This document shows, in pieces, positions 4,786 to 57,300 of a stretch of 64,000 nt of DNA. Source of the stretch: Paramacrobiotus metropolitanus. Taxonomy: Eukaryota > Tardigrada > Eutardigrada > Parachela > Macrobiotidae. The translations under genes were made by a program, and so were the position numbers. The notes under the pieces were generated by a model that was given only the letters and a program-made list of their open reading frames with translations, made no database searches and was not told where the DNA came from. Each line of letters opens with the position of its first letter. The stretch's first letter is position 1. The stretch is taken from positions 496,001 through 560,000 of the forward strand of contig NW_026570260.1 of assembly GCF_019649055.1 (NCBI RefSeq). The letters run 5' to 3'.

Positions 4786-6750
4786 ATGTTGGCGATTGGG
4801 TTTATACTGTGTTGTTTGCTCAATGGATTATTACGGATGGACGCGGCGCCCGCTGCGCCAACCGGCAACGATTTGCCGGCCAGTAAGTATTTATAATGCA
4901 AGTAGTTAATGTTTACTTCTATTAAAGAGTTCCTACGCCATCCACGTATTCGAACAGCGTCTAGCTTAAAACGCAAATCATAATTAAAAATTTCTGTTTA
5001 TTACGGGTGCATAGTGATGTATTTATAGCATGTCGTACTGTAGATAAACGGTTCATGAAACTGTTGTGCATATTCCTTATACTGGTACCTACTGCCTGCA
5101 TTGCCTAAATTCGGGGCATTTGTTAAGCGGTCTTCCTTTGGCAGACTGGCAGGATTTAATTGGGAACAGTCAAGGCCAGGGTCAGTCACACGATTTACTG
5201 CAGAATGGCGGCGTCTTCGAGGGGGATATCAAGGGCATCGACCGATCCGCCACCAACTCGGTACGCCCACTGACGTCACACGCAGTTGGCGAATTTAATG
5301 ACGTCCGAATGTTCCACGAATTACCCGAAGTTTCTTACCGGGATATAATTATGAGAAAGTAGAAATTCTCACCGATCGATTCGTCAGTTTTTTCCAGCAA
5401 CGCATTAACTGTACGGTAAATACGTCACCATATGACCTGACATTTCATAATATTGGGTAGGACGCCTTGTCAAACATGGCGCACAACGCCGTGATGGACC
5501 GCAGCCAGTTGTGGCCGAACGGAATTGTTCCCTACACCATCGGCAGCGGATACAGTACGTTCACCAGCACTTTTCACTGCAGTAATCCTCTGTTGACATC
5601 GTAAGAATTATTGATCTGTCACTGCAGACAGTCAGCAGAAGCAGGTGATACAGGGCGCCCTCAACGACATCATGCAGAAAACCTGTGTGCAATTCAAGCA
5701 GCGCACCAACGAGCGTGATTACATCACCTTTGTCAACCGCAACGCCGGGTACGTCTTAACGCTTACTCATCAGTAGCCACCGCCCCGTGTGGACGTTGTG
5801 AGATAACTCACTGACCGGTTGTGTGCGTTGTGCAGTTGCAGTTCGTATGTGGCGCGCGTTGGCGGTCAGCAGCTGATTGATCTGCAAGAAGGTTGCATTT
5901 ACGAGTTTGGCGAGGTTCAACACGAGACTATGCACGCGCTGGGCTTCTTCCACGAGCAGAGCCGCAAGGATCGCGACGATTACGTCACCATCGTCTGGAG
6001 CAATATCCAGCGCGGTCAGTAAGGTCACGACGATTTTGTTATTCGGTCTCATAAGTTTTTCTTCTTATAGGCAAAAAAGCAGACTTAAATTTGCGCAAAG
6101 AAACGGTTATAAAAAATTCAGTGCAAAAGCTTTAACAAACTGACTACCGAAATTTTACAGATCGTAATTTTGTTCAACCATTATTAAATGACTGCAAATT
6201 CTAAACTGGGAAAATTTGGTGTTATACAGAGTAAATAAAAAAATTAGATGCTTAATATAAAATTCAGCGTTTTTCAGATAACTATGATCAGTTTGAGAAA
6301 TACCAGTCAAACTTGTTGGGTTTGCCGTACGACTACGACAGCATTATGCACTACGGATGGAACTACTTCGCCATCAACCGCGGCAAGCCGACCATCGTGC
6401 CCAAGAAGCAAGCCACCATCGGCAACCGTAAAGTAATGAGCGCCACCGACGTGCAGAAGATCAACCTCCTCTACCAGTGCTCAGGAGCCAAAGCACCAAA
6501 GGTCACCTCCTCCCAGGGTAGCGGCTCCTCACGACCCTCCAGCCCCTCCCAAGGCTCCGGCTCCCGGGGCACCTCCATCCTGGATATTCTCTTTGGCGGC
6601 CTGGGCGGAACATCTTCCTCCGGCCGCGATGAGGCGCCGCCGCCGCAGGTGGTCACGCGAACGACCACTACGACGCAGGCTCCGCAAAAGAGCTCTGGCG
6701 GGATTACCGGGGCTATTAAGAGCTTCTTTTCCGGGCTGTTTAACGGATGA
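4786..6750 (+). CDS. Astacin-family zinc metalloprotease, secreted
   Basis: Six exons (4786-4882, 5145-5260, 5461-5554, 5628-5748, 5836-6014, 6278-6750) join in phase to about 359 aa. The first exon encodes a signal peptide (MLAIGFILCCLLNG), which decides the start. A propeptide-like region follows, then the peptidase M12A domain. The zinc site is HETMHALGFFHEQSRKDR with ligands H172, H176 and H182 and the catalytic E173; the Met-turn is SIMHYGW. After the catalytic domain there is no EGF, CUB or ShK module, only about 90 residues rich in Ser, Gly, Pro and Thr ending in FFSGLFNG. Astacins cleave extracellular proteins in hatching, moulting, digestion and growth-factor processing; which applies here cannot be told. 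The gene is convergent with the WD40 gene, about 200 bp apart. Confidence 0.95.
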
Positions 6751-6946: not shown

Positions 6947-9900
6947 TCAATATTTTAGTACCGGTCGCGACAGTATATTCAAGATTTTCGCGTAATGTTC
7001 GTCTTTGACGGTACGCTCCTCAAAAACCGGAGAAACTTTCTGGTGCGCCGTATTATCTTTCTGGTGAAAACTCTGTGCGATGAACTTGCTTTTAGACATC
7101 GGTGCCCGGTGAACTGCCCGCGGCGGAAATGCAGTTACTTTGAATTTTCGAGGGACATCTTCTTCCCCACTATCCGCATCATTATCCAAAGCTGCCATTA
7201 CTTTGACCCCCTCCGGAAACGGTCGACCTTCACATAAGATTTGTTCGTCCGACATCGGACAGGCCACCTCGAGCTCTTTCAGTACATTATCTTCCCGCTT
7301 CTCGAATTCATCCAGGTGGAATTCTCCTTTAGGCGTCTGGTTTCCTCCTTGTTCGCCGTCAAGACCAGTTCCACCGGCTGGACCGGCCGTTTCTTTCTTC
7401 GAGCTGTCTTTTCCACCGCCTGGATGTCCGTCAGCATCTCCATATTCCCCGAAACTACTGGCACCGCGGTGGTGGTTCGCCGCTCCTCCTGGCTGACCAC
7501 CTCTGTCGACGAAGACTGCATAGTCAACAGCGTCCCCACAAACTCAGAAGCATCCGGCTCCAGGAGAAAGTCCACTAGCGTCTGGCGGCCCGTCGAGCCC
7601 ATTCGAGCCAAGGTCTTTTTCACGTGTCCCACGTCGAAGCGAGACTTCTTCGCAATGTGTTGCATGTGGCGAGCATGGACAACGCGGACCAGTTCGCGCA
7701 TTTTATCCCCGTGAAGCGTTCCCTCCCGTTGGGCCTTGAGAAATTCCGGTCGCTGCCAAAGAGCCAGGCGGTCGATAAAGTCATTCTGGACTTTCTCTAC
7801 GTTATAATTGTAAATACACTCCGGGACGAGGTTTTCTAGATTCCCGAGATTTTCTAGCGATTTTACGGTGAAATTCCGATATACCGCTAAATCGTCTTCA
7901 ACCGGAAACGGTTCTGGATCCTCATTACCATCCTTCGGTACAGTGACCATTCTGTTGGTTTCTTCTGATTTCTGCACTTGTGGTTGTGGTAGATCGGAAT
8001 TTTTCATGTCCTGAATGACCTGAAGCGTCAGGGCGGATGCTCTTTCGGCAAGATCTTGTGGCACGATGGCTCGAGGTTTCAGAATGATTTCGTCCATGGT
8101 GTCCTCAGCAAAGATTTCTTCAAACACCGCGTGTTCGTCCTGGTTTTGGGCACTGGTGAAATTATAATGTGGTACCGGCGGTACATCCGTACTGATGTCA
8201 ATGAACAGGGGTTCCGACTGTCCCAGTGTCCCTATATACAGTCCTCCGAACGTCCATAGACGGACGGAGCAATCTCTGGATGACGTAATCACCACCTGTC
8301 GCTGCGGAATCACTGTGATGTGCTGAATTGCCGACAGATGTGCTCGGTAGACGTTGAGGATGATCGGCATGGAGAAGTACGCTCGGTGGCGGCTGTCCAG
8401 TTTTGGAAGGACTTCTTGCATTAGCCGATTGCGTAGGTGCGCCAAAATGGGCGCGAAAGTCTTATATTGGCGAATGGCCGGAAACGGACGCGGATCGAAG
8501 TTGTGGTGATGGTCGGAAAGGTCACCGTTGGCCCAGTCGCACAGTAAGTAAACCGTCATGTATCCGGCGTTGTCCCCGGTGAAAAGGAGCTCATTTTCAG
8601 GGTCGGTAGTCATGCAGCGGATGTAGTGATGAGCGGTCTTCCCGCCGTGGAACACCGCACACAGTCCCCGGTCTGACCAGCCGCGGATGAACCCGTCCAG
8701 TGACGCGGTTAGGATCGTAGCCGTTTTGGGATGGGTGCTCCGCGCGCTCAGATGGATCATGCAAGATACAGCTTCCCCCGAGGCGGCGGCCAGCGAGGGG
8801 GTCTTTTCTCCGGTGTTGAAATCTACTGGAATATCGTCTCGGACGCTCCGTCTGTTGATCTTCCGCACTTTGAGGGGCGAGTGGATAAACTGTAGAAAAT
8901 CAGAAATACTAGACGATTCCGGTTGAAGACGGGGAATGTGGGGCACGCCGAGGATGTATGGGGAAACATGCAGATTCCGTTCGGAAGGCGTAAACGCAGT
9001 GATGGAGCCGTCTGTGTTCAAAAATCGCAGCGGTGTGCCGGTGAACACGTCCCAGACGACTATTTCTCCATCAAAGCTGACAGAAATTAATTGCGATTCG
9101 TCGTCCGCCAACTTAGAATCGAGGGAAGAACTCCCAGACATGGATATAGATTCATCGGATGTCGTTTGCAGTGTTTTCTTGTATCTTATTCTGATATCTG
9201 TGATATCTGTTCGATGGATTACCGGGAATTTATACTCTGTTGCTTCAACGTCATCGTCTCCTCGCGTGTCTCGAACCATTACTACTCGTTGGCCACACCC
9301 TCCGGCGACCACTAAATCCCGGTTCCGGTGATACTGCACCGCACTGAGCGGTTTTCCCGCACCCTGATCGAATGTCGACAGACAGGCTCCGTTATTGAAA
9401 TTCCACATTTTGGTCAGCCCATCCTCTCCCACCGTTAGCAAGCGTCGTTGATTGCTGTCGAAGGTCATGTTGCGTATGGGTACCGGCTGGGTCCCCATAA
9501 TCCCGTCCTCTACATGAGCGTTCGCAAAATGAATTATCTTGTGACCGTTCTGGAAGTTCCACACCATTATTGTCGACCCTTCACATCCAGTGACCACGCA
9601 GTCAAAAAGGTCATTGTAAAGCGCCGCAACCACTGGGAGGTCGTGCGTCTTCACTAAGATGTCCCGCTGCCGGCGGTGCACCAACCGCTCTATGGTCAAC
9701 AGCTCACATCCACCATAAACAAAGTGCCTCCCTACGGGGTTATAAAACAACGTCCCGATCATAACCTTTCTGAAGTTCCCCACCGGGCTGGGGATCTCCT
9801 GCCACAAGGCGTTCTCTCGCACATTGAAAACCCGGATGGTACGGAGCGCATCGACTGTCACCACGGCGACAAAGTGCGCTTCATGGACAATCCGTACCTG

Positions 9901-11838
9901 GTCCACACTGGCGGTGTGGACGGCAAAGGTTGCAGTGGGCGTGGTCAGTTTATCTGGCTGCCACAATTTAAGCGATCGATCGGAGGAACCAGTGGCAATG
10001 AGGTGGACGGCCGGCTGGTAGTCAAAGCAGTTGAATCCGTTGGGAGCATTAGCGATGTATAGGGGTGGTCGGTGCGACTGCACCGGGAAGAGGATTAGCG
10101 AATGCACCGGTTCGTTGGTGGCAACAATGACCTGTCTACAGAACATCCGCTTTAAACGTGCCAATTAATTATGTGAACCGTTACAAGATTGCTTTCAGAC
10201 TTCTGTTACCGCGTTTATATCCAGGCAGAATCGGATCTGCAGCACTGGATTCTGAGCGGCCACTGTAACCCGGTTTATCTCCATGCATTTCCCGGCTTTC
10301 CGAAGGTCCGCCCAAGCAACCAGGTTGCTCGAACGTTGACTAACCCCGGCTGACGTCCAAAACCCATCGTAAAACAAATTTGGAAATTTTACAGCAAACA
10401 ACCCTCCGACAGCGTCCGCGAAAAACAGAATCCCGAGATATTCGCGGAAGACATAGTGCATGCACTCTGGAGGTGCCGGCATGCCGTAGATGGTGCAGAC
10501 CCTTTCCAATCGCGCTTCATCGTAGTAATACAGCTTAATCAGCCCCGTAGCGAACCCGATACCCAGGGCACGGATCTCAGGGATGCACACCATATCGGTG
10601 ACCTTTTCGTGGCAGCCAGCCGAACGGAACTCTGGGATGAGGTACATCGGATCACCATTGGGAGCTAAATCCAGAGTCCAACACTGGACGATACCCTCTG
10701 CAGTCACGGAATAGTAGCGCCCACTCACCCAGTCGATGGTACTCTCGGAAGCGGCAGCCGCCTGCGGGGACCACACCACCGCTTTGATCTGTTTTGTCCC
10801 TTGGTATTTTACCACGGCCGCTGGCTCCAAATACATCTCCCGTGCCACCTGAGACATGGCGTCCTGCTCCTGATACTCCCGCAGCGTGTAGTCCAGAAAC
10901 TCGTTCCAGTCGACATTCCCGTCGCAGTTGGCATCCACCTTCATAAAAACCAACGCTATCTCCCGCTCCGTCATAGCGTCGCCGCTGATACGCCGCATCG
11001 CCAGTTTGAATTCGCCGATATCCAGTCCAGGCTCGTCGTCCATGTCGGATTCCTCGAAGATGACGCGTAAACGCTCCAGGCGTTCTTTGGCCAGACGAAC
11101 AGCCGGGTCTTCTTGTTGTTCGCTCACCATCGAGCTGTGGAAAGTCTGTGGAGTTTGCTCTGGCTGTGGAACGTCATCGGGGAACAGTATGGTTTCCACG
11201 ATAGAACTACGGCGTGGATGGCGCTTAGGGGTTTCCAAAATTTCCTGGGAAAGGTCACCAATATTTTCGTGACTAGTAGTAGTGACAAAGGTGCCAGCAA
11301 CTTCTAACGAATTCTGCAGCTCATCAAGAGCTTCTTGGTTTTTTTTAAAGGCAGTCAGCCCTTGCAAATTCCCCTCAGACTTCAGCCTTAAAAAATCCGG
11401 GAAGGTCAGTCCGAACTTTTTCCGTAAAAGAAAAAGAACATTGCGCGGAGTTTTATTCTGTAGTATCACTCTCAAGATCTTCCAGGGATGGTTGAACATA
11501 CACAATCGTGCGAAGACGTCATCGGGCCGGGGCGCGGTCACCAGATCCTTTAAAAGCGAAAAACTGGGGCGGGATATGTGGGAAGCATTTGCTCCTGGTG
11601 GGGGCTCCTCATCTGGACGCTGCTCCCAGGAGCGGGCAATATCCATCCAGAAGTGGCGATTGGAAATGTCGAAGGTCTGCAGCGTTTGAAAGAAGGCAGC
11701 TGTCTGGCCATGACCTTTCAGTGGAGAGAAGCGCGGGGGCGGATGCAGGCGTGGCTGCATGAGGCGGTGACACAGACGGGAGTATTTCGGAGGGTCTGTG
11801 TCTTTGATCTGCTGTAGACGAGAAACGATCGATTCCAT
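6947..11838 (-). CDS. WD40-repeat protein with EF-hand (WDR49/WDR64/WDY-like)
   Basis: The start is the ATG at 11838 in a good context (accATGG). Exon 1 (11838-10210) runs into a 60-base intron (10209-10150, GT-AG) and then one very long exon. Residues 1-250 have no domain I recognise. An EF-hand pair follows: a degenerate loop (DMDDEPGLDIGEF) and a canonical one (DANCDGNVDWNEF). After that come WD40 blades, including SSDRSLKLWQPDK, CEGSTIMVWNFQNG, GEDGLTKMWNFNNG, FDGEIVVWDVFTG, LDGFIRGWSDRG and SRDCSVRLWTFGG. The EF-hand-then-WD40 order is typical of WDR49, EFCAB8, WDR64 and insect WDY proteins, often linked to cilia and testis. The frame changes near 7290-7430: the WD frame stops at 7279, while a coding-like tail continues in another frame to 6947. 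The tail may need one missing base or a 47-base mini-intron. Total length is about 1,600 aa, longer than usual for the family. Confidence 0.85.
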
Positions 11839-13628
11839 GGTCGGCAGTAAGATTTGCAGCGATAGTACAGGAGGTCACAACTGGCCCAACAAAAACAAAT
11901 AAAGGAACTGCTTCAGTATATCAGGTGCGTCATTTATTACAAAACTAATCAAAAGAACGCTGTAAACACAATATTATTACGCAGTAGTCAGTAAATGTAC
12001 AGGTTGATCAGTCAAGCGCATTGAGTACAGCACAGGTTACAAGAATAGTACTAGAGCAGGCTGTTAGTTGTGCCCCACCCAGGTGTCCCATGCCCCAAAA
12101 CTAACCTTGTCACGTACAGTAAGGTCCAGATGCCTGCTTAACGAGTACAGTATTTAATGGATCGCTTTAAGATTGTTTAACAGCAATAATTATTCAAATA
12201 CTCGCATCTGTAATTTGTATTTAATAAGAGATTATTAAATTTTGCTTTGAACTCATATTCCATGCAACAGACATCCAGAATACGTAGACAGAAAAGGACC
12301 TTGACATATACAGATAATTCGAAAAAGAACGTCGACAGAGCTTGTCAGGATTCTGGAATATTTATTTATCTCTAAATTAAGCATGCGGTTGCTAGAATAA
12401 GACTACCCTGTACGTCGTAATCTCTTCAACAGCCCGGCATCTCGTCGTCGCAAGCCAGCTGCCAGCAACATCAATACCTATCTGCTGGCGATGGGGCGGA
12501 TGCTTGGCAGTCACCACACAAGAAAGGTAATCGTTCCTTGCTATAACGCACTGGGAGCTGTATGCGTTATTGCGTACTAACGACTAACGAGCACTGTAAT
12601 GCAGTATGCTCTATCTGAATCCGAACATGCGGCGTGGAGTGTCAAATTCTTTATCAAGTTTTTAATTTTATGTACGTAACTACTTTACCACATCTTAGGG
12701 CGGTAGCATTAAAATCCCTTACATTTGCGCCTGATAAGCTGCTCGCACTCCATAATTTACGCCGTGCAAAAATTTCTAGATCTCCAGGAAATAAACTCAT
12801 TTGCGCATTAGTCTTTTTTTGTTGCAGCTGCTTAGTGATTTTGCTGCATCCAAGTTAGCCATTTTTGTTAGTTAGCTGCTTGGCCGTATCTGTTAATCAA
12901 GTATCGTACAGTACGCGTACATCAGCGTGGTCATTGTCTTTGCGAGTGTACGGTATAACTATTCCGTCTATTCGTATTGAAGTGCACCATGTCGGCTGCG
13001 TTAAATGTCGCGGTTGCAGAGTTAACCCGCGAGAATAGTCTGACGGCAAATAGTCCCAGTTAGCAAATTGAATTGTTTGTTGTATAAATAAACTGCCTGC
13101 GAAAAAACTGCCATGGCTTTTTAGTTCGAAAATCCGTACAAACAGCTCGCTGTAAGCAGCCGTAGAGGCAGTATGTTACACCTGTGCATTACTCTTCAGG
13201 AAGAGATGCCCTACCAATCGGTGCAAAAAAACTGCAGTAGCCAAGGAGTGATCAGATAAAAAAATGTTAAAAGTAAAGCGAAGAAAGATGCTGCCGGCAC
13301 AAAAAGTCAGCAGAAAACTACAAAAGCGCAAAGTGATATTATGAAAAAGCGGATCAAACGCCTTTAGGCTAACACTGCCGCAGACGATAGTTAGTTGCCG
13401 CGCGTAGTTAACTGCAGTTGGCTTATGATCAGTTAGGCTGAGTGTGGGGCGAACCAAATTACTTGCGGTGCGGTGCATCTGGCGGAATCAGTGTCTGCTA
13501 CATACAACTTTTCTAATCCTTTGGGAGTACCTTCTTATCTATCCAGCATAACACTATGACCACCTACACCGCCGATCCTTTCTTCTCCAGCATCACCGAT
13601 CTCCACAAGACGCTGACCTTCCTGCGCA
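11839..13628. other. Intergenic between divergent WD40 and sulfotransferase genes
   Basis: This must hold the promoters of both divergent genes. Only a weak two-exon candidate at 12401-12679 looks coding. A short frame starting at 13556, MTTYTADPFF..., runs directly into the sulfotransferase start in a different frame. It may be an upstream ORF, or the true N-terminus if one base is extra near 13646. Confidence 0.4.
12401..12679 (+). CDS. Possible two-exon peptide-coding fragment
   Basis: Two segments (12401-12536 and 12605-12679) are joined by a clean 68-base GT-AG intron that keeps frame. They read through a strongly basic stretch with RRR and RRRK cleavage-type sites, a segment NINTYLLAMGRMLG, and end at a TAA. 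The composition resembles a neuropeptide precursor, but there is no visible start codon, no signal peptide and no family I can name. It may be chance. Confidence 0.18.
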
Positions 13629-15591: not shown

Positions 15592-18239
15592 GCTGTTGTT
15601 TTTCGTTTGTGCACAGTCTGCTCGGTGATCCATTGGAAAATTTGCATTAGAAAATAATGATGACCAACGGACTGCTCTTCTTCATTTCAACGCAGTCGCA
15701 TTTCAAGCACGCATTTAATCGCTGCTTCTCTGATAGAAATTACATTTATATTACAGTATAACTGTTCTTCTTTATACAATTTTGTTTGTACGGTACAGTC
15801 TATCCTGTCAACCTTGCTGATGTGCCTATCCGATAACCATACCGTCCATGTGTACAATACGTACAAAGTGGCATCATTACTGTATTGCGTAAAAACTTAC
15901 ATTGTATTCATGGCTTGATAACTTTGGATATTCATTAATCACCCTTGCGGCAGTCTCACTTGACAAGAAATTTTTTTGCTTAGTTTATTAATGTAAGGGG
16001 AAGCATCGAAGTAACCTTTAAACTAAATGAAATTATAAAAATGTTACTCCAGCGGGAGAAACATGTGCTCAAAATTAATTTCGTTTCTCACGTGCAAGCA
16101 GCTTACCGGTTAATTTGAAAATTTGTTCTATTCATTCGTTAACCGTTTCATTAAATTCTAACGAAAAAAGCTGTACCACCACTGCCTTCACAAGGCGCAA
16201 TTACGGAAGGCAGTGTTCAGGTGTATTCCTGGTGGTGAGATGGGGCGACATCGAAGCTCATGCACGAGAGACTTACTGCAAGTTCCTTGCATTACTCCCA
16301 TTTCGACGCGCTATACCCCGACAGAACAGCTTGGGATATAGTACTCGTTTCTAACAGCAACACGTTGCTTGTATACTGTGAATGCGAACCATGTAGGCTA
16401 AGATCACGCACCACCAGGATGTTGAATCGGTCGGAATGCTTGCAAGCACATCCGGTTCCAAAATACTGGTCTCCAAACCCGGAGCGCGAACAACTGGCCG
16501 CAAGACTTCGTACCATACCGATGTCTCCGTCGCCGGCACAACCAACACCTGGCTGTACCAATCCAGGAAAGGACCAGCCAGCGTTCTGTAGATATCTGTT
16601 GATCGGCAATCCGTCACCCTGCTTTAATTTAATGTTGGGTACGCGGCCAGTCCGCTGGTTTCGCTTTGCTGCCATCGCCCTGACACCTCGTGCACGGGCG
16701 GGAAACACAGCCTTCACAGTGACTCTCATGACGCTACCGGGAAGAAACAGTTCGCGCTTTGGCTGCCTTAGTTCTATGCTCGATTCGCTGATAGGTGCAT
16801 TGTATCTTAACGTCGTCGGCAGTCAGCGGTAAAGTAATTCGGCCATCGGAAGGATGGACGACCTGGGTGGTAAGGTGTCATGACCTTGTGGTCCGGATTC
16901 ATGCGTGGCCGCATAATTTCCTCTGAAGTAACCGGAAGATTTAACTGTAGCAAAACCACGGTATATATAGTAGATAGAGGGGAAACCTGCCGCTGCAACT
17001 GAACGGGAAAATCAGTGAGCATTTTTTTCCACTACATTTCGTTATACGTTTCGCAAAAGATACTTATCTATTTATATTCTATACAACGTAGCTACCGAAA
17101 GGAATGGCGAAATTGTTAAAACGAAAGGCCACCCATCACATGCAATATTTCGAAGGCGCTGCCTGCTGCCTCGTCATCTGTTTGGTGTGCCGCATACGCG
17201 AAATCGCGCATGCTTTTTTGCCGTGACAGTTATTACACACGTGACCGCGGACGTATAAGGTAAGAGGAGCCGAATGATAATCAGTCGACCACACTCGATC
17301 CAAAGCGGACGAGAAGAATTCCAATTCCAAATGTTTAGCTCGAAGACCGTTATATTTTTGCACGGGCACGTTCAACTCAGGGTTCCTCTGACGGTGCCTG
17401 CTGGCAATTCAACGGAAAAGTACTGTACGTCAGCCACTCTCGGACTGACGGGAGCAACTGAGAACTTGATCGGCTTTTGACAAAAACACTGTTATGTATT
17501 TGTATACATACTGTAGTCTAGCCACCGAACCTTGCCAGGAATGTCCAGGTACATCGAAAAACGCAAACTGTGGAACATCACATTATTTTGTCGATGAAGT
17601 GATTTTTATAGCATTGTAATATTAAATTATTACAAACGAGAAATAACCAGGAATAACCATATTTACTTATCACTTTTTTAATACTATATTTATTTATCTA
17701 TCAAACTGTAGTTCCCTTTATTTACGTAATTTATTAGTACTTAGTACAGCCATATATCCTGTCTCTTTAAAGTAATTGTACATAAAGCATGTGATTGCTG
17801 TAACAACTGATTGCTGTATAAACACTAACAACTGATTATGAATTATGATGTGGATCTGGCTGTGAAATCCCAGGAATTCTGCCGTGTTACAATACTCGTA
17901 TGTACTGTAAGTGTACAACAAACAGCTCGCGCCACCAGATAGTAGTGAGTCATTGTGCAGGCAGAGTCGGCAATGGTGACTCATCGTTTAGCCAACCTAG
18001 CTTGAACATTTTTTTCGGGTAGCACTTTAATGTAGTCACTCATAATGGGATTGGTTTGGGAATGACAGGATAGTCTACCGACGCGTCATGCATGAGTAGC
18101 GTAGCCATACATTTCTCTTAAAAACGTTTGCCGGCTGTGTATAGAGGCGTCAGTTGACATTTTCCGGTTGATAAAAATTATATTCTCATTTTTGTTCACT
18201 AGGGTAGTACTTCTAGCATTTATATAGCTGACATTTAAA
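15592..18239. other. Intergenic, sulfotransferase to TPK homologue
   Basis: The first 700 bases and the last 750 bases are AT-rich and show no gene. The middle holds the coding-like minus-strand stretch listed separately. A short hairpin (about 16182-16213, stem with actgccttc against gaaggcagt) lies before it. Confidence 0.4.
16351..17480 (-). pseudogene. Coding-like stretch broken across frames, unidentified
   Basis: The minus strand shows a chain of protein-like segments in changing frames. In gene order they include FSVAPVSPRVADVQYFSVEL, ELPAGTVRGTL, NVPVQKYNGLRAKHLELEFF, LLQLNLPVTSEEIMRPRM, ITLPLTADDVKIQCTYQRI, LFLPGSVMRVTVKA and VLVVPATETSVWYEVLRP. The beta-strand-like alternation recurs (LNLPVTSEEI against ITLPLTADDV), as if domains repeat. 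No start, clean splice chain or family could be assigned. A decayed gene, or a gene of many short exons with consensus errors, would both fit. I do not recognise it. Confidence 0.3.
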
Positions 18240-19247
18240 ATGGGACTGAAATTGTTCAAGCGCAGTAAAAAGCCGGTAAGTGTCAGCGAGTCTCCCACAC
18301 CACCTATTTCCGACGATTCCCCGACACCGCCAAAGGTCACAACTGAATCCCCGGTGCCTCCAACTGCCGTAGAAGATGATCGCGCTGTTTCTACGCCAAC
18401 ACCGCCGCTGCGTGCGGGTTCGAGCGACAGAATATACCACGTGATCCCCGTATCCGACTATCTTGATCTATACGGCCCCCAGAAACTAGCCTTGGTGGTG
18501 TTGAACACCGTCTACGACTCCGACGTCGTCCCTAAACAGCACCCGCTCCTTACCACGCTCCTCTTCAAATCCGTTTGCCGCGCTGCCGCCAACGGGGGCG
18601 CCAACTTCTTTCATGATTGCTGCAAGCACTTCAACCTGGGCACGCGGCATCCGACCATCATTTCCGGTCACGTTCACGACTCCATCCGGCCGGACGTTTT
18701 GGCCTTCTATCAATCCCAGAAGGACATCACTATCGATTACACCCGCCACCTTCACGAGACGGCCTTCTCCCATGTCCTGCGCCTGCTTCTCAAAGACATC
18801 CAGACCGGCGCCGCCCCAACGGTGGACGCCATCGTGGCCTTCAGCAACGAGGCCGGGCGGTTCGATCACCTCATGGGCGGGATCAACACCCTGTACCAGG
18901 TGCAAAAGCTGACCAGTATTCCCGTTATCCTTACTTCCGGCAACGACCTGCAGGTCGTTCTGGGAAGCCCGGACGTTGGGAGTTGCGGGTGCAGCCCGGA
19001 GCGCATTGTGGCCTGATCCCGCTGGACGGGTCGGCCACGGTGACCACCGAGGGACTGTGGTGGAACTTGCACAACCAGGTGGTTCAGTTCGGGGGAAATG
19101 GTCAGCACTAGCAACGAGGTGGTGGCCGAACGGGTGGTCATCGAGACCGACAAACCGCTGGTGTGGACTATGACGGTGAAGGCGAAACACATTCCCATGA
19201 GTACCTATTATGGACACATCGTCAACGAGCAGCAGCCGGCAGCTTAA
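18240..19247 (+). CDS. TPK1: Thiamine pyrophosphokinase homologue, metal ligands lost and frame broken
   Basis: This is a single-exon gene of about 336 codons. An N-terminal extension of about 60 residues with SPTPP-type repeats precedes the TPK fold. Family landmarks are NGGANFFHD, HDSIRPDV, AGRFDHLMGGINTLYQ, then CGLIPLDGSATVTTEGLWWN, FG, MVSTSNEVV and ETDKPLVWTMTVK. TPK transfers pyrophosphate from ATP to thiamine to make the cofactor ThDP in the cytosol. The acidic metal-binding positions are altered: the DGGAN aspartate is Asn, the GDFDS motif reads GHVHDS, and the DxDxTD region reads RHLHETAF. The frame breaks twice: at about 18965-18985 (one base missing) and at the GGGGG run at 19091-19095 (one extra base); net length is in frame, with TAA at 19245. 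It may be a pseudoenzyme, a decaying retro-copy, or a gene with consensus errors. Confidence 0.85.
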
Positions 19248-21918: not shown

Positions 21919-22221
21919 CGCTTTTGCACTCGTTCATCACATGACCCACAGTGCAGAGAGAAAGTGCGCATTCAGCGAGCAGATAGAGAGAAAGAGAGAA
22001 GAGGCAGAAAGATTGGCGTACTCGATGTACTGCAAGGTTTGGCCTCGAGTAAGAGCGAGTTGACCGTGTTTCGCACGCAGTGGCATGCAAGAAACGGTTC
22101 ATAGTGTTGACTGTTGAGAGAGTGTGTGTGTGTGATCATTTCTGGAAAAGAGCGAGCCGTTAGTTCAGCACAGCGATTTGCAGTACTCTGACGAAATCTC
22201 ATTGGCGTTTCATTCACAAAA

Positions 22222-25200
22222 ATGTCGGGACTTATTGTTGGCCTGATTGTCGTATCCTGTTGGTTGCCAGTATGCCTGAGTCTAAGCTGCCACTGCAACT
22301 TCTGCGAAGGCGGCGTCTGCACACCCGAGGGGAATGGACGCTGTTTCACCCGCTCCCGCACCGACCGCAACGACCAGATCAACACCAACTGGGGCTGCAT
22401 CAACGAGGAGAATCTCATGCCGCCCCAACGGCCCTTCCTCTGCGAGGGCAATTACGTAAAACCGCACCTGAACACGGTTAAGTGCTGTAAGGAGGATTTC
22501 TGCAATCCGCGCCACCATTTGATCCATCAGCCTACCCCCGGCCCCGTTAACACTACCACGCCCCTGGCGCTGATCGACAACCCCGACACCCGCGCGGTGT
22601 TCATCGCTGCCGTGGCCGTCATCGCGGTGGTAGGGGTGCTGCTGGCGGTGGGGGTGCCGTTCTTCATCATCCAGCGACGGCGCCGCAAGAGGAGGATCAT
22701 GGGCGGCCAGCGCGTGGGGGAGAGCGATAAGCTGATCGAGGGGGGCTCCAGTGGGGGCGACCAGTTGGCCTTCTCCGGGTCGGGATCGGGATTGCCGCTG
22801 CTGAGCCAGAGGACAGTGGCTCGCCAGATTACCCTGTCGACGGCGGTGGGGAAGGGGCGCTTTGGGGAGGTGTGGTTGGGCAGCTGGCATGGAGAGAGGG
22901 TGGCGGTCAAGATCTTCAGCTCGCGTGACGACAAATCGTGGAGTCGGGTAAGCCATCCCTAATGTGTTATTTAACCATAAGTTATGCTGTTATAGTATTA
23001 TTTACGACGCTGTTTTGAAAACTTCGTGATTTCGTTTAGTTGCACATTATTGTGAAAATATGTTCTTTAATTGCACAGTTTTTCCCTTTTCGTGCATTTC
23101 TGCTTGTGATTTAATTTGTACTAAAGTAGTAGTTAAAATGACATGAGTCGACTGTTTTATAAATTCCTCGTTACAATTTGATGCTTTCGATGGTTTGGAA
23201 AATTGCCGGGCATTGTAAACTTTGTTTATCCGCTATCGATGTCGGCGAGTTACTAGTACTGTTTGCGGATTCGCTTATATTCGATTATATGATAATTTTT
23301 CGAAAAGTATTACTTACCGCCGGCTGAGCGAGATGCGAAAGAGCATCCCGCATGGTATCGAGGAAAAACAACGTTACAACGAGCTGTATTATCATGCGAC
23401 GAAACATCGATGGGTGAGTATTTGTGTAGTACGCGGTGCAAATAAACAGCGCGCTGTTCCTGGCTGAAGCAGCTGATTGTCAAAGAGATCGGTAGTTCGG
23501 TACATATGTGGCGGATTAGCAGGCTAATTCCGTGATATGTGACTGTGTCATCTGCGGGCTGTTGTGCTTTGCTCGGGTTTCGCTCGGGCCGATCGATGAA
23601 AATAATACGCTCACTGCTCAGTAAATAATACATAATTCCAGTTGGTCCCCAGAAATCACGGTGTATGGGGATGTTTTCCCTTCGTAATCACGGAAAACGG
23701 TTTTTTCCTTTAATTGTTTTATTTTCTTTCAAGATTACTCTATACTCGTATTTATCGAAGCAGCGGAAATAGAAACGTCCACACTTTATCGGGGAAATAG
23801 AACTTACGTTACGCAGGGTTAGCGTTGAAACCAGCTAGACGTACTCTTAGTTGAGCAAAAAAAAATTCGGCAGTTGATAAATCGCTACCGGAAAGATGAA
23901 TGTTACTTCGACTAGCTGCACTCCTTAGTTGTTGTTACTAAAACGTAAATGTACTGTACACTTTTTCGTGGAGTTTTGGCTTTTGAGCGGTGACTTATCA
24001 GTTTGAAAAACTCACGGTGCATTGAGGATTTGGGCTGGTTGATGTAGTCGTGACAATCTGATTGGCGGTACGGCATTATCGGTGGCATGTGCCGCTGACA
24101 GGTTTTTTGTCTTGTCGTTCTTCGCTAACTAACGCGCTAGCCAGTCATGCTGAGCGGAGAAAAGTATTTTTAAATAGCCTGGCTTTTGATGCCATTGTTA
24201 TTAGCCGGAGCTCTCGTGTATTTGGATACAGTTGTTCTTATCCTAAAAGCACATTACTGTTTTGTGCCTGGCGGGCGCACTTTGTCGTTCTGGTGCCGTC
24301 AACAACAACGATAAACAAATAGATTTTCTGTTAGCTTTTTGTGGTTTTCCTTTGTTCGCGCCGGCTGAGGTCGTTAAGATTTTCTGTTTGTTTAGTAGCT
24401 TTTCGTCATTGAGCTTAATTGGCTTAGGGATGCATCGTCAGTGACGGAGTTTGTATACCGGTATCTTTGTGGTTTTGTTAAATAAATAAACTTCAGAACT
24501 GTTGGTTAGGCGAGGAACTTAGGTGTGAACTGAAGGGTTTCGATTTCCTTTATTGCCGATTTGTTCAATATTTCTCCTCAAATTATTTTCACCGTGTTGC
24601 TTAACTGAATTATGTTAACTGAATTATTAACAGAAAATTAATTTCATTAATTAAGTGACAACAGTAGGCGGTAATATCTGTACGCAATACGCATGCTCTT
24701 ACTAACACATTTAATTTAATTCCTTACTCGTTAATACGAGTATGTTGGTGATCTGTTATAACTGCTCTATCGCTAACATCAACTTCACGGCCCAAAACAT
24801 TCATTCCACAGATTGAGATGACGTGGTTGTGTAATTAGGCACAGGTCCGATCTGCAAATCAGTTAATCAGAAAGATTTTATCGATGTATTTGTGACGAAC
24901 ACGAAAATGAGGGGCCGAGTGTTAGAAGAGCACGTCAGCCCGGGAATTTCCCCCTCCGATCATTAAGGAGTTGACTGCGGAAACGTGAGAGATGCTGATG
25001 GAGATGGTGCGAGGTGTATTCTTTCGGCTGTTGCTGCTACTCACCAGCTGAATGGTGTGGCCGGCATTTGGCAAGTGTTGTTTGTTTTTGGCCAAATGTG
25101 CCTGGCCTAGGGCAATCCTCCAGCATCAAAGTCCGTTTGGCTTTACTTTGACACTCCGATCCGATTCATCCGATCGGATCGCGGGAACGCGCTGGAATGT

Positions 25201-28200
25201 TTATGCAGCAGCGTTTTCGTCACACTTGAGCAGTGACTGTGCGGGAGAAAATACGCCACTATTCAGATCATGTCAAGTGCGCCACTTGCCTAACAAAGTG
25301 CACAAGGGATTTATGTGAAACCTTTTGATACAATTTTTCTGATTACACCCATTTTTAAACTTTAAAAATTCTGCACTGAGCGATACTAGATGCAGTCCTG
25401 TTGGAAAATATTTCGCTGAAGGTTTTGGATTGTGCCGTAATCAGCATCACACTGTGACAGTAGCTCCACAGAAGGTTTAAAACTACCGCAATTTATTACT
25501 GTATTTCGTTTGGCTTGCTTGTTTTCCTGTTTGGAAAACGAAGGCGTCTTGAGCAAATTGTGATACGAGTATGTAATTTTAATCAGTTTGGACTTGGCCG
25601 CTCAGCGATGTTCCTGAAGCACTTCTCCGATGCTTGTATTAAAGTTGAATTAATGAATACATCTTAGAATTATACGAGGAGGGGGTAAATACACGGGATA
25701 GACAGAAAAAACGGCAATAATAAGGGATAACCATTTTCGTGTTGAGCAGCGCGGCCAGCCACCAAGGGCAGGCAGTCCAGCGGCATTACACAAAATTCAG
25801 GCTTTGAGACCCGAGCTGCCTTCTTCGTAGAATCCTGTGTTATATTCAAACACCAGCGTCTTGGACATTTCAGAATCAAACCGTGCAATTGATATCTTAA
25901 AAGAACAAGAAATAATTAACAAGATTTTCGATACCACGCAAGCCGTGATCTATGAGAAACACGACAAGTTATAGCCAAATTACGTTTCCCATAGACAAAG
26001 CATAGGAGCTCCGTGGAAGCAAACCATCCAACTCCTATGCTTAGTCTACGAGAAACTCAAATGGCTCAATCTTGCCTCAGTTTTAATAAGTGGCGAGTAG
26101 TTTGGTATCAAAATCTTGTAAATTGTCCCTGTTCTTTTGAGCTATCGATTGCGCGGATTAATTCTGAAATGTGTGCAAAGACGAATTAAGTTTAACATAG
26201 AAGTCTACGGAGAAACAGCTCGAGACAGTAGTCTCAACGGCTGTTGTGCACTGTGTCACCGAACTGCCTTCACTTGGTGGCTGGCAGTGTTGCACAACAC
26301 GTGAATGGTTATCCTTATTGCCGTTTCTGTCTATCCTTTATTACCTCCTCGTACTTCTATTGCTTGCGTTTTGGGAGCGGTTGTCAATAGCTGGTGGAGA
26401 GCTGATCGCTGCAAATACCGAACCAAATGGGAAAGTGTCTGGGCGTTGGGGCGGAACACGACGCTGAGATTTGATAAGTGGGTAGAAAGTGGGTCAGGTG
26501 TTCGGACAAGCTGCACAGGGACGATTGAGGACAGTTGTGATTTTTGAGTGGCGGGAAAGCCGTAAGATGCGCTGCCATTACATTAGGTACTCCGTACTCG
26601 TATCATGCATGCATGGCATGGTATGCGACTATTTGTATGGGCTGTGTAAGCTCTGGATTGTGGGTATGCCGTATGCCCAAGAAAAGCAATAATAATAAAT
26701 TGACTGTTGTGGAAAAATAATGGCGTGATTAAGATGACCGCATGTGTGTGTTGGTGTGACGGATATACTAATTGATAATTTGGTTGGGAAAACGCCGCAG
26801 CTACGCCAGTGCGGTTTGGGCCCCGGCGAGCGTACTCATGATCGATTTGCGCATTTGTAAATCGATATTTAATTTCCTCGGCCAGCTTTTTATAGACCCC
26901 ATTCCCCACCGGGTGAGCTGCCTGCTGGAGATGCTGTCTCGCCCCAAACGCACTATCATGCTTCAGCGCATTTCAAAACGCCTTGCGCACCGCAAATTAC
27001 ACACACCAGCCTGTAATTGACGCCAGTTGTGCTAAATGTTGTTTCAAATTAGTAATTTTCGTTTGGTCAGTATTAGCAATGAATACCTTAGTTTTTAAAA
27101 CGTATTAACTTTTTTTTTGTAAGGTGCCTCTAATTTTCGGCACGGTGATCGAGTGCAGTATTGGTCTTTCTGCTTTCTCATTGAATTAATTTTCTGAACC
27201 CTTGTTCCTTTATTTTCTGACATGATTAGCTTCAGTTTTGCAGGCGGTTTATTGTTTTTATTTAATTTGCATATTTCCATTAGGAAAAAGTTCGGCAATC
27301 AGCGGACTGTAACGAAGATTCTTTGAATTTCGAAAATGCGAGTGTTAATTTGTAGCGGTTTCGGGTGCGTGGTGGCGATTGACTGATTAATTAGGCAGAT
27401 TGAGCGTGCTGTCTGGCTGCTTGTCAGTGCCCGGCTTGACCTTAATTGACAGAGGCTGATCGCGCGGGTCACAGAGTGCCTGCTGACGTCCTTCTTCCGG
27501 GGGAAACGATTAGTTTTTATCCAGTCGTTTTGGCATGTGCACTGTGCAGTGCCCTGTGCCACGACATATCAGTGGTGGATCAGTATGTAATGTTTTTGTC
27601 TGTTGGCTGCCAGCGCGATATGAGCGCCGGCAGCGTTGGTGTGCTAGTGTGCTACCACACGAGCCTGACTGGCGGAGTGGCATTTAATGACGCTTCATTA
27701 AGCGGTGTGGGTTTGGCCGGCGTGTTGTTCATCCATTAATTTCAATCCATTAATCACTATTAAATTTTTGTGTGAAATTTTCTGCGTGCTGGAATGCTTT
27801 GCCGTTAATCGGAGTGCGAGCACGGAACTGATTGTGAGCTACTTGCGTTTGCGGTTGTGTCGGCCGAGCACCGCGATGGCTGTTGAAAGGCGCTACATGT
27901 TTTCGATTTGATTGCGTTGGGGCTTGAGTACGTACCCTAGTGGTTGTAGTTAAAAAGCTGGTGAAACCATCTCTAATCAACGATTTCTGCAGAACACTAA
28001 ACTTGATCGATCCTGTATCATTAATTTGCGTGATGAGGCCGTTGTGTCAAGAAATGATTGGCACATTTTGCGTGCTTTACCCGAACATGTTTTTCGACTA
28101 AATAAGCAAAATTAAGGAGAAAAATCTTTTGAAAAGACATACAAGCACAAGCACTTATCAGTTGATGCAATAATATTGCCTAAATAATGGGACACTCATA

Positions 28201-30147
28201 ATACAAGACAAAAGTGTTGCAAGTACGGTATTGTAAATCTTACAATTAGAGTATTGTAGTCGTTATGGGCGCTGTTAATCTAATCAACGATTACCCAGAA
28301 ATTGCTACAATAAGCTATGCGCACTCATACGTATTTTGAAATTAACTGATTTTTTAGCAGAAAGTAGGGTAAGGAAAAAGTACGAAGATATATTAATTTA
28401 AAATGATAATGTTTGTAGGAGACCGAGATATACAACACAACGATGCTGCGCCATGAGAATCTCCTGGGTTTTATCGCCTCGGACAACAAAGACACAGGGA
28501 TGCTGACGCAGCTGTGGCTGATCACCGAGTACCATGAGCGCGGTTCCCTCTTCGACTATCTGTCGGAGAACCGGGTGGCGGACGCCGCGGCGCTACTGCG
28601 CCTGACCTATTCGCTGGCGAACGGACTGGCCCATCTGCACATGGAGATCGTCGGTACCCAAGGTAAACCGGCCATTGCCCATCGCGACATCAAGAGCAAG
28701 AACGTCCTCGTTAAGCGCAATGGACAATGTGCGCTGGCCGACTTGGGACTGGCGGTGCGTTTTGATTCCCTCACGGGACTCATCGATATCCCAACGAACG
28801 ACAAGGTATGTTTGGGCTAGACTCTATAGTTATTCGGAATTAGTTTAGAGATAGTTTTGCAATATCGAAAATCGAACCTTTCAGAAGTTGGTTTCAGAGT
28901 GATATGAAATTTGGTTTCAGTATAATCTATTGAAGGGGAAAAACTGTCTCAATGAACCACTTATTTTGAGTTAGGTAATTGGATACTTCTAAGTTAAATT
29001 TTTTTTAAAATACCACCGCAGAGGCAGCATCAAGCAGGTACATGAAGAAATATGTAGAGATTTTTGCTTCTGTGTGAGCCCTTTGTTTTGACGGCATACG
29101 TTTCGCAAAACGACTGCCCGCGAGGGAGACCAGTGTCTTAACTTTTATAAGCATATGCGAGATGCATCATAATACGAACTACGAAAGCCAGTGAAAAGTT
29201 GTTGGTTCGAATATTGAACAGATTTTAGTCTTTTTCATGACTTAATAAAACGTACCATGCTGCTTGTTTTCAGTTGGTCATGCAGAAAACCTTAATTTGG
29301 TATTTATACTCGTACTGTATCTGTTTCAATAGTTAAATAAGAAGTGGTGAGCTGCTTTGTGTTTAACCTGAACTACGACTTTTTTCGCTTTCCGAATACT
29401 TTTATAATATGAATTCGTTGCACCGGACGGCAGAGACACGGTGTTCTCCGGGTTGTTCCATAATTATGACGAAAAGTTTTTAGAAATTGATAACGTGGTA
29501 ATTATTACTAATAATTATTGCTTTTATACAAGATTGTATAGGATATTAATAAAAAAGTATCGAGTTTTCTAATGCCGGGTAACGCAGAGGATGCCGTTTC
29601 TCTGATGTCCGGCACGCGAATTCAAATTGTGATAGTGTGCGAAACGGGAAAAACGTCGATGTACGCAATCAAAATTAATAGTACAGTCGTAATACCGTGC
29701 TTGGCCAGTCAAATACGCAGCATGGATCGGTTGCAGGTGGGCACGAACCGCTATCTGGCGCCGGAAGTCCTGAGCGACGCCATTAATACCAAGAACTTTG
29801 AAGCCTTCAAGGCTGCGGACCTGTACGCCATGGGTCTGGTCTTCTGGGAGATTTGCCGGCGGTACAGTCCGCGGGAGCAGGACTCAGTGGACGACTACCA
29901 GCTGCCGTACTTCGACATGCTGCCCTCGGAACCCAGCGTGGAGGAGGTGGCTGCCGTAGTGTGTGAGAAGCGCATGCGGCCCGGCATCGAGGCATGGCTG
30001 AACGCTGAGACGGCGGAGGACGAGGCACTGTCGCTGCTGACGCGGGTGATGCGAGAGTGCTGGTACGAGAACCCCATGGCCCGGCTGACGGCGCTGCGGG
30101 TCAAGAAGACTCTGGGTAGTATGATGGAGGCACGGGATATCCGCTGA
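22222..30147 (+). CDS. babo: TGF-beta/activin type I receptor kinase (Baboon/ALK4-5 type)
   Basis: Three exons (22222-22947, 28419-28805, 29737-30147) join in phase to about 507 aa. The order is signal peptide ([20 protein letters not shown]), cysteine-rich ectodomain ending CCKEDFCN, one transmembrane helix near residues 124-148, GS box [19 protein letters not shown], and a Ser/Thr kinase with [25 protein letters not shown] and DLGLAV. The L45 loop ([13 protein letters not shown]) matches ALK4/ALK5/Baboon, not the BMP-type ALKs, so signalling through Smad2/3-type R-Smads is inferred. The kinase ends with [20 protein letters not shown], as in the family. Ectodomain, membrane helix and GS box all sit in exon 1, followed by an unusually long 5.5-kb intron that contains a fold-back repeat. 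All catalytic residues appear intact. Confidence 0.95.
22948..28418 (+). other. Intron 1 of the TGF-beta receptor
   Basis: This 5.47-kb GT-AG intron separates the GS-box and ATP-loop exon from the rest of the kinase. It is about ten times longer than the other introns in the same strand's genes. Apart from the fold-back element at 25673-26353 I see no gene in it. It could hold enhancers or an alternative promoter, but no motif proves that. Confidence 0.6.
25673..26353. mobile_element. Large fold-back (palindromic) repeat element
   Basis: The two halves of about 335 bases are imperfect inverted copies. The outer ends pair tacgaggagg with cctcctcgta. Further in, cggcaataataagggataacc pairs with ggttatccttattgccg, and caagattttcgatacca pairs with tggtatcaaaatcttg. 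At the centre, agacaaagcataggag pairs with ctcctatgcttagtct. It has no coding capacity, so it is a fold-back or MITE-type non-autonomous element inserted in the receptor intron. Confidence 0.85.
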
Positions 30148-54300: not shown

Positions 54301-57300
54301 CAATCCTAGCTGTTCGACCCATAAGGAACAGCAATAATTACGTACGTCGCGATCCACATGCCCTTTCCGCTGACAGGCACTACAAAAAATTGCGTATCGC
54401 CAGTGTGGCAGCCGGGAAAACGTACTGCAGATTATATTAATCGAGATGCAATTCCATCCTTTCAATAGGCACTTCTGTATGTACACATAGGTTGACAATG
54501 CTATTCATACTGTTGTTGCCAAAACTGGAAAAATCAACTAAAAGTTCCACCACGAACTTTATTTGCGGCTGGCAGACCGCATAATACAGCCGCAGCATAT
54601 CATAAATAGGAAACCATTTCGTTGTTCCGAAAGATTGTGCATTCGTTATTCGTATTATAATACTATACAATATTATTTAATTAGAATAAACCTGATGGTT
54701 GTGTGTGTAGGCGACATCCTGATTGCGCTATTCAGCATGCCGACGGAAGTGTTCTGGGAAGTGTTCGGCGGTTGGGTACTGGGCGAGGTGGCCTGCAAGG
54801 GTTTGACCTATTTGCAGTTCATCCTCTTCGCCAGCACCTGCCACATCCACATGTGCATCGCCTGGGACCGATGGGAGGCCATCAGCGACCGCGGCAGCAC
54901 CCTGCGACTGCACAGCCCCAAACGCATGCGCCGCCGCTACACCATGGTCGCCGCCTCCTGGCTCCTGGCCACACTCATTGCTCTGCCGCAACTCTTCGTC
55001 TTTGTTCAGGTACGCGCCTTCAGGTGGTCACGCTTTCTTTACAGTTTTCAGTTCGTGGTCAGTATAGTTTATTATTTTTACAATTTGCATCTGAAAACCA
55101 TTTAGAGTTATTTTGTCTTGTCCGGCAATAAAATTATTAATAATCTTTAAAACGGCGTGCTTTATTATTGATTTGCTCGTTTACACAACAACTTTGCTGA
55201 AAACTACATGGTAGTAAGTAGCCAATTACGCCAGTAATACGGCTCCGCACTAGCATTTGCACATTTTCAAAATTAATCAAAACTTTAATATACAGTACTT
55301 TAATTCAAATTCAAAGCCGGCATTTGACTTTCTTACAATACTAACGATAGCTGCATCAACGTTGTATATTACATGTAAGAGTGAAAAGAGAGTAGTGTGA
55401 AATTCGAACATTTGACTAACGCGCGCAGTATAAAGCAAAGCGCACATACTACACAAACAATGCATTCAAGTAAGAAGATTCTTTGAAATGGTACACACTT
55501 GCCGTGTCCTATAGCAGAGCAGGAGGAAAAGGCGGCTACCATTAAGCATTATAACACATCCAGCCGACACCAACCCTTAGTCTGCCTTCCCACGTAATAT
55601 GAAAAGATCAAGTAGCGAAAGGTCACGGTATCTAGCTTCTTTTGTTGTTCGTATTCAGTCTGAACATGCAGAAGGAGTGCCTTGCTTGTAGATACCTGGC
55701 ATGGCTTTCTGACATCTTCTTGGAAAAATCGCTGCAAAAGACGCCCTCTGGCTCTTTGATTTTGAAGTGCCTTCAACGGAGACAAGCGAATAATACGTTA
55801 AAGTGCAGCCGCCCTTGACTGAATTTATCCATTACGCGACTTAGCATAAGAAGACAACTTGGCCACCTTTTTGCATGCGTAACCGCTGAATTACTGTTCG
55901 GCATTAAGGCAAATCCATGATTACTAAAGAACAGCTTTACTGTGTCAGCTTTTGTGCATCACGCACATGTTCCGCAGGCAATAAGCTTTCCTTAATGATT
56001 ACTGTGACCTTCATCTGTCCCTTAAAGAGAAATCGTCAGTATTTGCTCTTATCTTGCAGGTAGACGTGGGCATCAGCACTGACGGCAGCCGCATTAGCTC
56101 CTGTGCGTCCAATGGCTACAGCGCCGCCTGGCAGCGCAAACTGTACGTCAGCTGGACAGCGGTTTACATGTTCCTCATCCCGCTGCTCGTTATCTCTGTG
56201 TGCTACGCACGCATTGCCAAAGCGGTGTGGATCTACGACCGCAAGATGGCATCGGCGTCGGCCGGCCGCCACTGGAACACCCGCTCCGACACACTGAACC
56301 GCAGCCGGCATGGGATGCACAGTGCCGCAATGGGCAGTGCCGCTAATGGAAAACTCTTGCCTAGCCCCCCGGAGGAGGCGGCACCAGCTGGCACGTTGTC
56401 GCGGGCCAAACTGAAAACCGTGCAGGTGAGCCGCTCTACGTAGCTTTAGGTCACCCACCATCGAGCAGCAGGCAGCACCCAAACAGCATTTGCCGGAAGA
56501 GTGTTCGCATGACCGGAAAACCGCGTACTGACCTAAGATAAAAATACGTCAGAGTTAAATGCGTAAATCCAGGACAGAATACACTCGGAAGTGCATGTTG
56601 AACGTTATAAAACTGCACGCAACGACTGGCATTGTGTAATATTCACAAACACGCCTGTCGCTTCTACCACGCACAAAAATGACCTCTTTAAACTCATTTG
56701 TGCAGGTGACGGTGTGTGTGTTGGTCTCGTACACGTTTTGCTGGATTCCTTATTTCACCGTTGCTCTCGTCAACGTCTGGTCAGACTACAGGTGAGCGAC
56801 CTTTAAATAACGTCCCGCAGCGACTGCAACATTATGATTAGATGTTAAGTGGGTATAATAAAATGCAAGAATAAAAAGAATCGCAGTGTTTTCATGTTAA
56901 GTAATAATTAAAAAGAAATTTGCAAAACTAAATTTGAAATTTTCTTGTGTTTTTTTTAACTTTTTGTGTTGCATCTCTTAAGCAGTATGGCTATGGAGCA
57001 AACAACTTGGATTAACAAAGGACAAATAACCCAGTTAGTTACCTTGGCAGGTACAAAGACGCCATCAGCAGCTCCTCGATCGGCGTCCTGGCGCAATGTC
57101 TATGCTGGTTCAGCAGTTGCGTCAATCCTATTATTTACGGCTGCTTCAACCTGTCGGCGGTGTGTCGGTGGCTGGCGGTCAAACTGAAAGCCTGCTGCCA
57201 CTGCCCATGTCCCTGCCGCACCGACAAGCCGCCGCGGTCCCTCACCGTCAACGGCCGCCAGCTGCCCTTTCCTCTGCGCACCCACTCGCCGGCGGTGGTG

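Follow-up and report, generated by a model that had tools for sequence, protein, structure and literature searches.

The gene at positions 18240–19247 on the forward strand of the window (the whole 64-kb stretch of DNA that was analysed) encodes a homologue of thiamine pyrophosphokinase (TPK) in which most of the Mg- and ATP-binding residues are replaced, and we judge it, at a probability of about 0.6, to be an old TPK paralogue that has been retained as a pseudoenzyme (pseudo-TPK). The homology to TPK, proposed earlier from motifs, is confirmed by a Pfam match to TPK_catalytic (PF04263) of 44 bits against a cut-off of 30.7 and by matches of the window protein to three distinct PDB TPK1 chains with E values of 4.2e-15 to 8.1e-15. 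Animal TPK1 is represented in the PDB by the entries 1IG3, 2F17, 3S4Y, and 9HJC. The window copy shares with animal TPK1 both TPK domains and the GRFD, CGLIP, W, STSN, and WTM motifs, but differs from it in the replacement of three of the four Mg aspartates, the lysine at the second Mg, and the gatekeeper glutamine, in a metal loop that is one residue longer, in a proline-rich N-terminal extension, and in two breaks of the reading frame.

The coding region comprises 335 codons read across two 1-nt frame breaks, with no apparent intron. In the first frame, the ORF opens with ATG at 18240 and runs to a TGA at 19014–19016, giving a translation of 258 amino acids. The segment CGLIPLDGSATVTTEGLWWN sits in a different frame, within an ORF at 18617–19111, whereas the stretch from STSN through VWTM to PAA is again in the first frame and terminates at 19247. 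A search of the genome with TPK1 as the query reflects the same arrangement, with a first-frame match at 18480–19184 of the window (E 8.5e-44) that has two TGA codons inside and a separate match in the other frame at 18962–19093 (E 2.1e-6). Comparison of the frames places break 1 at a GGG run (18962–18964), where one base is apparently missing, and break 2 at a GGGGG run (19091–19095), where one base is apparently extra, so that the two are opposite 1-nt shifts, each at a G run. The segment between them (18962–19093, forward strand) reads GKPGRWELRVQ...CGLIPLDGS...GLWWNLHNQVVQFG and is followed by the C-terminal part in the first frame (19095–19247), which reads EMVSTSN...WTM...PAA and closes with TAA at 19245–19247. 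The remainder of the 335 codons contains no further stop or frame break. The earlier note had treated 18240–19247 as one gene frame and mentioned neither the stop at 19014–19016 nor the two frame changes; a single ORF over this interval is ruled out by the in-frame stop together with the position of CGLIPLDG...LWWN in the other frame. Removal of the breaks by splicing is likewise ruled out, as the intervening sequence is itself coding and conserved, and programmed frameshifting is disfavoured because the shifts are opposite and about 130 nt apart and no canonical slippery heptamer is seen by eye at break 1. The frame change also divides the thiamine-binding domain, with TPK_B1_binding (PF04265) scoring 35.5 bits against a cut-off of 22 in a frame other than that of the start codon, and its remainder in the first frame scoring 21.3 bits, under the cut-off.

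Immediately upstream, at 18105–18225 on the same strand and in the frame of the gene, lies a 40-codon hydrophobic stretch closed by TAG; this is probably AT-rich non-coding DNA, which yields such segments, and could conceivably be a membrane exon. A bacterial-type promoter scan upstream of the gene, which is ill-suited to an animal gene, gave one site against 0.8 expected, and Rfam and tRNA scans of the 64-kb window returned nothing. Elsewhere in the window are a WD40 and EF-hand region on the reverse strand (7279–11874; two long frames of 961 and 559 codons with about 30 nt between their stop-to-stop limits) and, on the forward strand, an astacin domain (6256–6750), a TGF-beta type I receptor-like gene whose open frames carry activin-receptor, GS-motif, and kinase domains (22192–30147), a rhodopsin-family GPCR domain (54542–56443), and a Hyccin domain (58898–59722), the astacin, GPCR, and Hyccin domains each in an open frame of its own. 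A lipocalin-family search of the genome picked out a fatty-acid-binding-type protein at one strong place and gave weak matches at two others.

The protein begins with an N-terminal extension (18240–18476) that has no counterpart in the paralogue by alignment and consists of a basic start, MGLKLFKRSKK, followed by a Pro/Ser/Thr linker. The repeated SPTPP-type character noted earlier holds, with four SPTPP/SPVPP/TPTPP repeats (18291–18407) recognizable by eye in the translation at residues 18–22, 27–31, 37–41, and 52–56. The TPK catalytic-type N-domain follows at 18477–18962 (residues 80–241; PF04263) and is 46% identical to the intact paralogue over 160 aligned positions, compared with 62% for the C-domain.

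The active site was compared through a MAFFT alignment of the window copy, the paralogue, and human TPK1. In the Candida albicans enzyme (PMC2515308), the first Mg is held by Asp-78, Asp-113, Asp-115, and Asp-142, the second receives contributions from Asp-113, Asp-142, and Lys-145, Gln-138 acts as a gatekeeper, and Tyr-285, Ser-299 to Ser-301, and Asn-302 lie at or near the thiamine. The equivalence between this numbering and the human and window residues is our own and relies on the succession of the residues named there and the distances between them. The motifs NGGAN, GHVHDS, and RHLHETAF do occupy the places of the DGGAN, GDFDS, and DQDHTDF motifs of TPK, as the earlier note had it. Five of the six Mg/ATP residues defined in the literature have been replaced (D>N118, D>H144, Q>L171, D>A175, and K>H178). 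In position, Asn-118 (18591–18593) replaces the Mg-binding aspartate equivalent to Asp-78; HVHD at residues 144–147 (18669–18680) stands for DFD, with His-144 at the Asp-113 position, His-146 inserted, and the Asp-115 position kept as Asp-147; and HLHETAFSH at residues 170–178 (18747–18773) brings Leu-171 to the gatekeeper position, Ala-175 to the Asp-142 position, and His-178 to the Lys-145 position, with His-170 and His-172 in place of two further aspartates, the second of which is Asn in the paralogue. The strictly conserved lysine at the second Mg is therefore absent, with His-178 instead. Asp-147, in HDSIRP, is retained when the loop is anchored on DSIRP, the extra His-146 preceding it, and this right-anchored alignment rules out loss of all four Mg aspartates; only one of the four strictly conserved aspartates is present, Asn-118, His-144, and Ala-175 being the changed ones. 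The earlier claim that the metal-binding acids have been lost thus stands for five of six Mg/ATP positions, including three of four aspartates, but not for Asp-147, and the alignment with TPK1 that had been suggested as a check finds an acidic residue at the same position there and none of the other three aspartates.

The thiamine half is retained, with CGLIP, Trp-275, and the STSN thiamine-site motif (Ser-289, Thr-290, Ser-291, Asn-292; 19104–19115) all present in the alignment. The altered loop also contacts thiamine, through the Gln main chain and Asp/Asn, and thiamine binding by the window copy is accordingly not certain; as judged from these residues, we put it at even odds that thiamine or TPP binding is retained.

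A search of the genome (169,799,020 bases in 533 contigs) with the PF04263 profile at E 0.001 has matches at two places, one being the window copy and the other an intact TPK1 on contig C67 (locus L001, 1198–2016; 272 amino acids), which carries DSGAN, GDFDS, and DQNETDF and matches PDB TPK1 chains at about 6e-51. The loss of catalytic residues in a gene whose genome also contains this intact paralogue supports the status of pseudoenzyme suggested by the earlier note, as far as sequence can show it. The earlier note had also stressed that the gene is intronless and had looked to a second, intron-bearing TPK1. The ORF does lack introns and an intact TPK1 does exist, but the latter is itself a single exon, so the lack of introns is not special and is no sign of decay from a retro-copy. 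Human TPK1 has nine exons (PMC10446836). A retro-copy arising by intron loss is rejected, because the sole other TPK1 found is also single-exon, and a retro-copy on its way to decay is not favoured given this intronless TPK1, the parity of rates outside the active site, and the constraint running through the breaks. The N-domain identity between the window copy and TPK1 (46% of 160 positions) is close to that between the tardigrade and human TPK1 (42% of 128 positions), which suggests that the window copy is an old duplicate, and the two copies agree against human at 41 of 192 sites, suggesting a duplication later than the split from the human lineage.

Conservation was measured at the positions identical in the intact paralogue, human, and mouse. 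The window copy keeps 1 of 6 literature-defined catalytic positions, 32 of 45 other N-domain positions, and 33 of 41 C-domain positions. For the catalytic loss, the Fisher p is 0.017 with the N-domain positions as the control and 0.006 when all other positions serve as the control; when the control is restricted to charged and amide residues, of which 11 of 17 are kept, the loss is not significant (p 0.069). In a relative-rate comparison with human as the sole outgroup and one paralogue, and with the active-site loops picked after the motifs had been seen, the window copy has 20 lineage-specific changes and TPK1 18 at the 192 sites outside the active site, compared with 7 and 0 at nine active-site sites. 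By domain the counts are 12 and 14 at 119 N-domain sites (p 0.69) and 8 and 4 at 73 C-domain sites (p 0.25). Identity to the paralogue by codon position is 95, 112, and 65 of 160 codons before break 1 (p 5e-7), 23, 37, and 18 of 43 codons between the breaks (p 8e-5), and 22, 28, and 14 of 30 codons after break 2 (residues 286–318; p 3e-4). In neutral simulations that assign the entire divergence to a single lineage, no run out of 500 or, in a second set, out of 1000 stayed free of stops (mean about 9 stops), and with about half of it (nucleotide identity 0.77) 1 of 1000 did (mean 5.6 stops). The rates and codon positions point to purifying selection outside the active site, as far as one outgroup and one paralogue can indicate, and these tests give no indication of relaxed constraint across the whole gene of the kind a pseudogene would show. 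We consider it very likely that for most of its history the window copy was maintained as a protein. Most of the Mg/ATP residues are lost while the rest has changed no faster than in TPK1, which suggests a dead enzyme retained for some other function, and since the constraint runs through both breaks, any death of the gene would have to be very recent.

The sequence analysed is probably, in trimmed form, the assembly of Paramacrobiotus sp. TYO (P. metropolitanus), which was made from Nanopore R9.4 reads with Canu, nanopolish, and Pilon (PMC8277472). As a control, HSP70 was searched across the genome, giving 88 matches over 59,583 nt, with 69 of 130 candidates scored. Five pairs of neighbouring matches lie within 40 nt; in the four within 20 nt, all frame changes fit one missing base, and in the fifth (gap 40) the frame changes the opposite way. 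The junctions of the four closest pairs fall at a G run (L005), at AAG(G) (L006), at a C run (L007), and at an unclear place (L008); L006 and L007 are highly conserved HSP70s, and L005 and L008 are divergent copies that may be decayed. At places like these, gene models built on the assembly may be truncated or out of frame. A TCP-1 control search gave 50 matches, many with stops inside, the genes being split into many short exons. That HSP70 genes in this assembly carry comparable 1-nt breaks makes assembly error a good alternative, plausible though not proven, and the breaks in pseudo-TPK are probably not genuine; they would be homopolymer errors left over in a nanopore-based assembly or else, with lower probability, mutations of very recent date. 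Against this stands the measured rate: four breaks in 59,583 nt, or about 1 per 15 kb, predict 0.07 in pseudo-TPK and a 0.2% chance of two or more, making two assembly errors in a single 1-kb gene unlikely, and the HSP70 breaks fit missing bases, whereas break 2 is an extra base.

The same low Poisson expectation favours recent death of the gene, in which a paralogue that used to be functional, whether or not it still had catalytic activity, has just lost its C-terminal third through two real frameshifts, and the breaks and in-frame stops of the assembled sequence are what such a gene would show. A genome search that skipped repeats and common words also found no uncollapsed second haplotype copy with an intact frame. 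We nevertheless regard recent death as unlikely, at perhaps one chance in a few, since the 335 codons have no other stop or frame break, the constraint through both breaks would confine the death to the very recent past, both breaks are at G runs and conserved HSP70 genes have breaks like them, and decay alone does not predict that five of six ligands were lost while the rest kept the pace of TPK1. The assembled ORF, which ends at 258 amino acids and before the thiamine domain, counts against the retained pseudo-TPK as well and could instead be taken at face value as encoding a real N-domain-only product whose C-terminal domain is being shed. That the C-domain is the better conserved of the two (62% against 46%) is the reverse of what shedding would leave unless it were very recent, and we consider such a truncated protein improbable, despite two distant relatives in the genome whose N-domain-like region is not accompanied by any thiamine domain that Pfam detects.

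These relatives, L003 (426–1688 of its locus) and L004 (493–2016), lie on the reverse strand of contig C175 at 153.0–154.3k and 193.3–194.8k, and in each a segment that probably spans the membrane precedes a degenerate TPK-like N-domain. The window protein finds both places in the genome (E 5e-5 and 4e-4), and TPK1 finds one (E 1.05). Their hydrophobic segments reach Kyte-Doolittle values of 2.58 and 3.02 over 19 residues. Pfam sees no TPK domain in either, and a profile built from these two sequences alone matched no TPK structure, giving only two unrelated hits with E up to 10; compared with a TPK1 profile from which the window copy was left out, the same pair scores 49.8, the highest score among 200 column shuffles being 22.8. 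Both lack the DGGAN and GDFDS aspartates, and the Asp of the Asp-142 column is kept in L003 only. They resemble the window copy in the N-domain-like region, in the absence of most Mg aspartates, and in a P-x-x-[DE]-[WY] segment at equal spacing, seen by eye; they are unlike it in the probable transmembrane segment and in having no Pfam TPK domain. They may constitute a small family of membrane proteins that arose from TPK. Whether they descend from the window gene is not settled by site counts (14 against 12 and 13 against 9, window gene against TPK1). In L004, 82 of the 85 genome matches listed cover only the first ~78 residues, some in two frames of one place, which marks a dispersed repeat overlapping the 5' end of its ORF.

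The substitutions also suggest another reading, in which histidines (HVHD, HLH, and His-178) have turned the Mg site into one for a transition metal, and the protein would be a new enzyme or would sense metal or redox state. Residues 80–318 contain 13 histidines, five of which fall within 17 active-site residues (hypergeometric p 9e-4, computed post hoc), and L003 shares with the window copy an Asn in the Asp-78 column and a His in the His-170 column, as L004 shares a His in the His-172 column. The Asp-142 ligand, however, became alanine, and the HxH pattern and HVHD loop are absent from both relatives, so we think a new metal site improbable. A more specific version, with a histidine-rich transition-metal site in a protein that cradles thiamine or TPP, which would act as a new metalloenzyme or as a vitamin B1 sensor gated by metal and would form one branch in a small radiation of non-kinase proteins derived from TPK, membrane-anchored forms among them, is more improbable still.

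For the retained pseudo-TPK, the proposed course is that an old TPK1 duplicate gave up catalysis and persisted as a protein that may still bind thiamine or TPP and act as a non-catalytic partner. The TPK site is shared between subunits, with thiamine between the loops of one and the C-terminal strands of the other, according to the C. albicans description (PMC2515308), and a heterodimer with one working site is conceivable for this reason: the intact C-domain of the pseudo-subunit would complete one working site of a TPK1/pseudo-TPK heterodimer, and its dead N-domain would leave the second dead. Alternatively, pseudo-TPK could hold thiamine or TPP without turnover. It may thus be a prozyme-like regulator, perhaps tethered via its basic, proline-rich tail, although a role as partner or regulator of TPK1 is at present a tentative proposal, less likely than the retention itself.

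Dead paralogues that control living relatives are known for several enzymes. In trypanosomes, dead paralogues activate AdoMetDC and deoxyhypusine synthase, as has been reported (PMC5201418, PMC3663545). Both systems are like the present one in having a catalytically dead paralogue beside an active copy and would share with pseudo-TPK the proposed action of a heteromer that regulates the active enzyme; they differ in the enzymes concerned and in that the pseudo-TPK partnership is hypothetical. Among titles and abstract starts in the open-access literature, none on a pseudo-TPK paralogue was found. Human TPK1 has been covered by a deep mutational map, which is biased towards missense changes that are deleterious (PMC5740498).

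With its ATP half dead, its thiamine half preserved, and the two cleanly separated, pseudo-TPK lends itself to a direct test of the heterodimer idea. If pseudo-TPK is retained and expressed, the activation step of vitamin B1 would have a built-in non-catalytic subunit, in what is probably a tardigrade.
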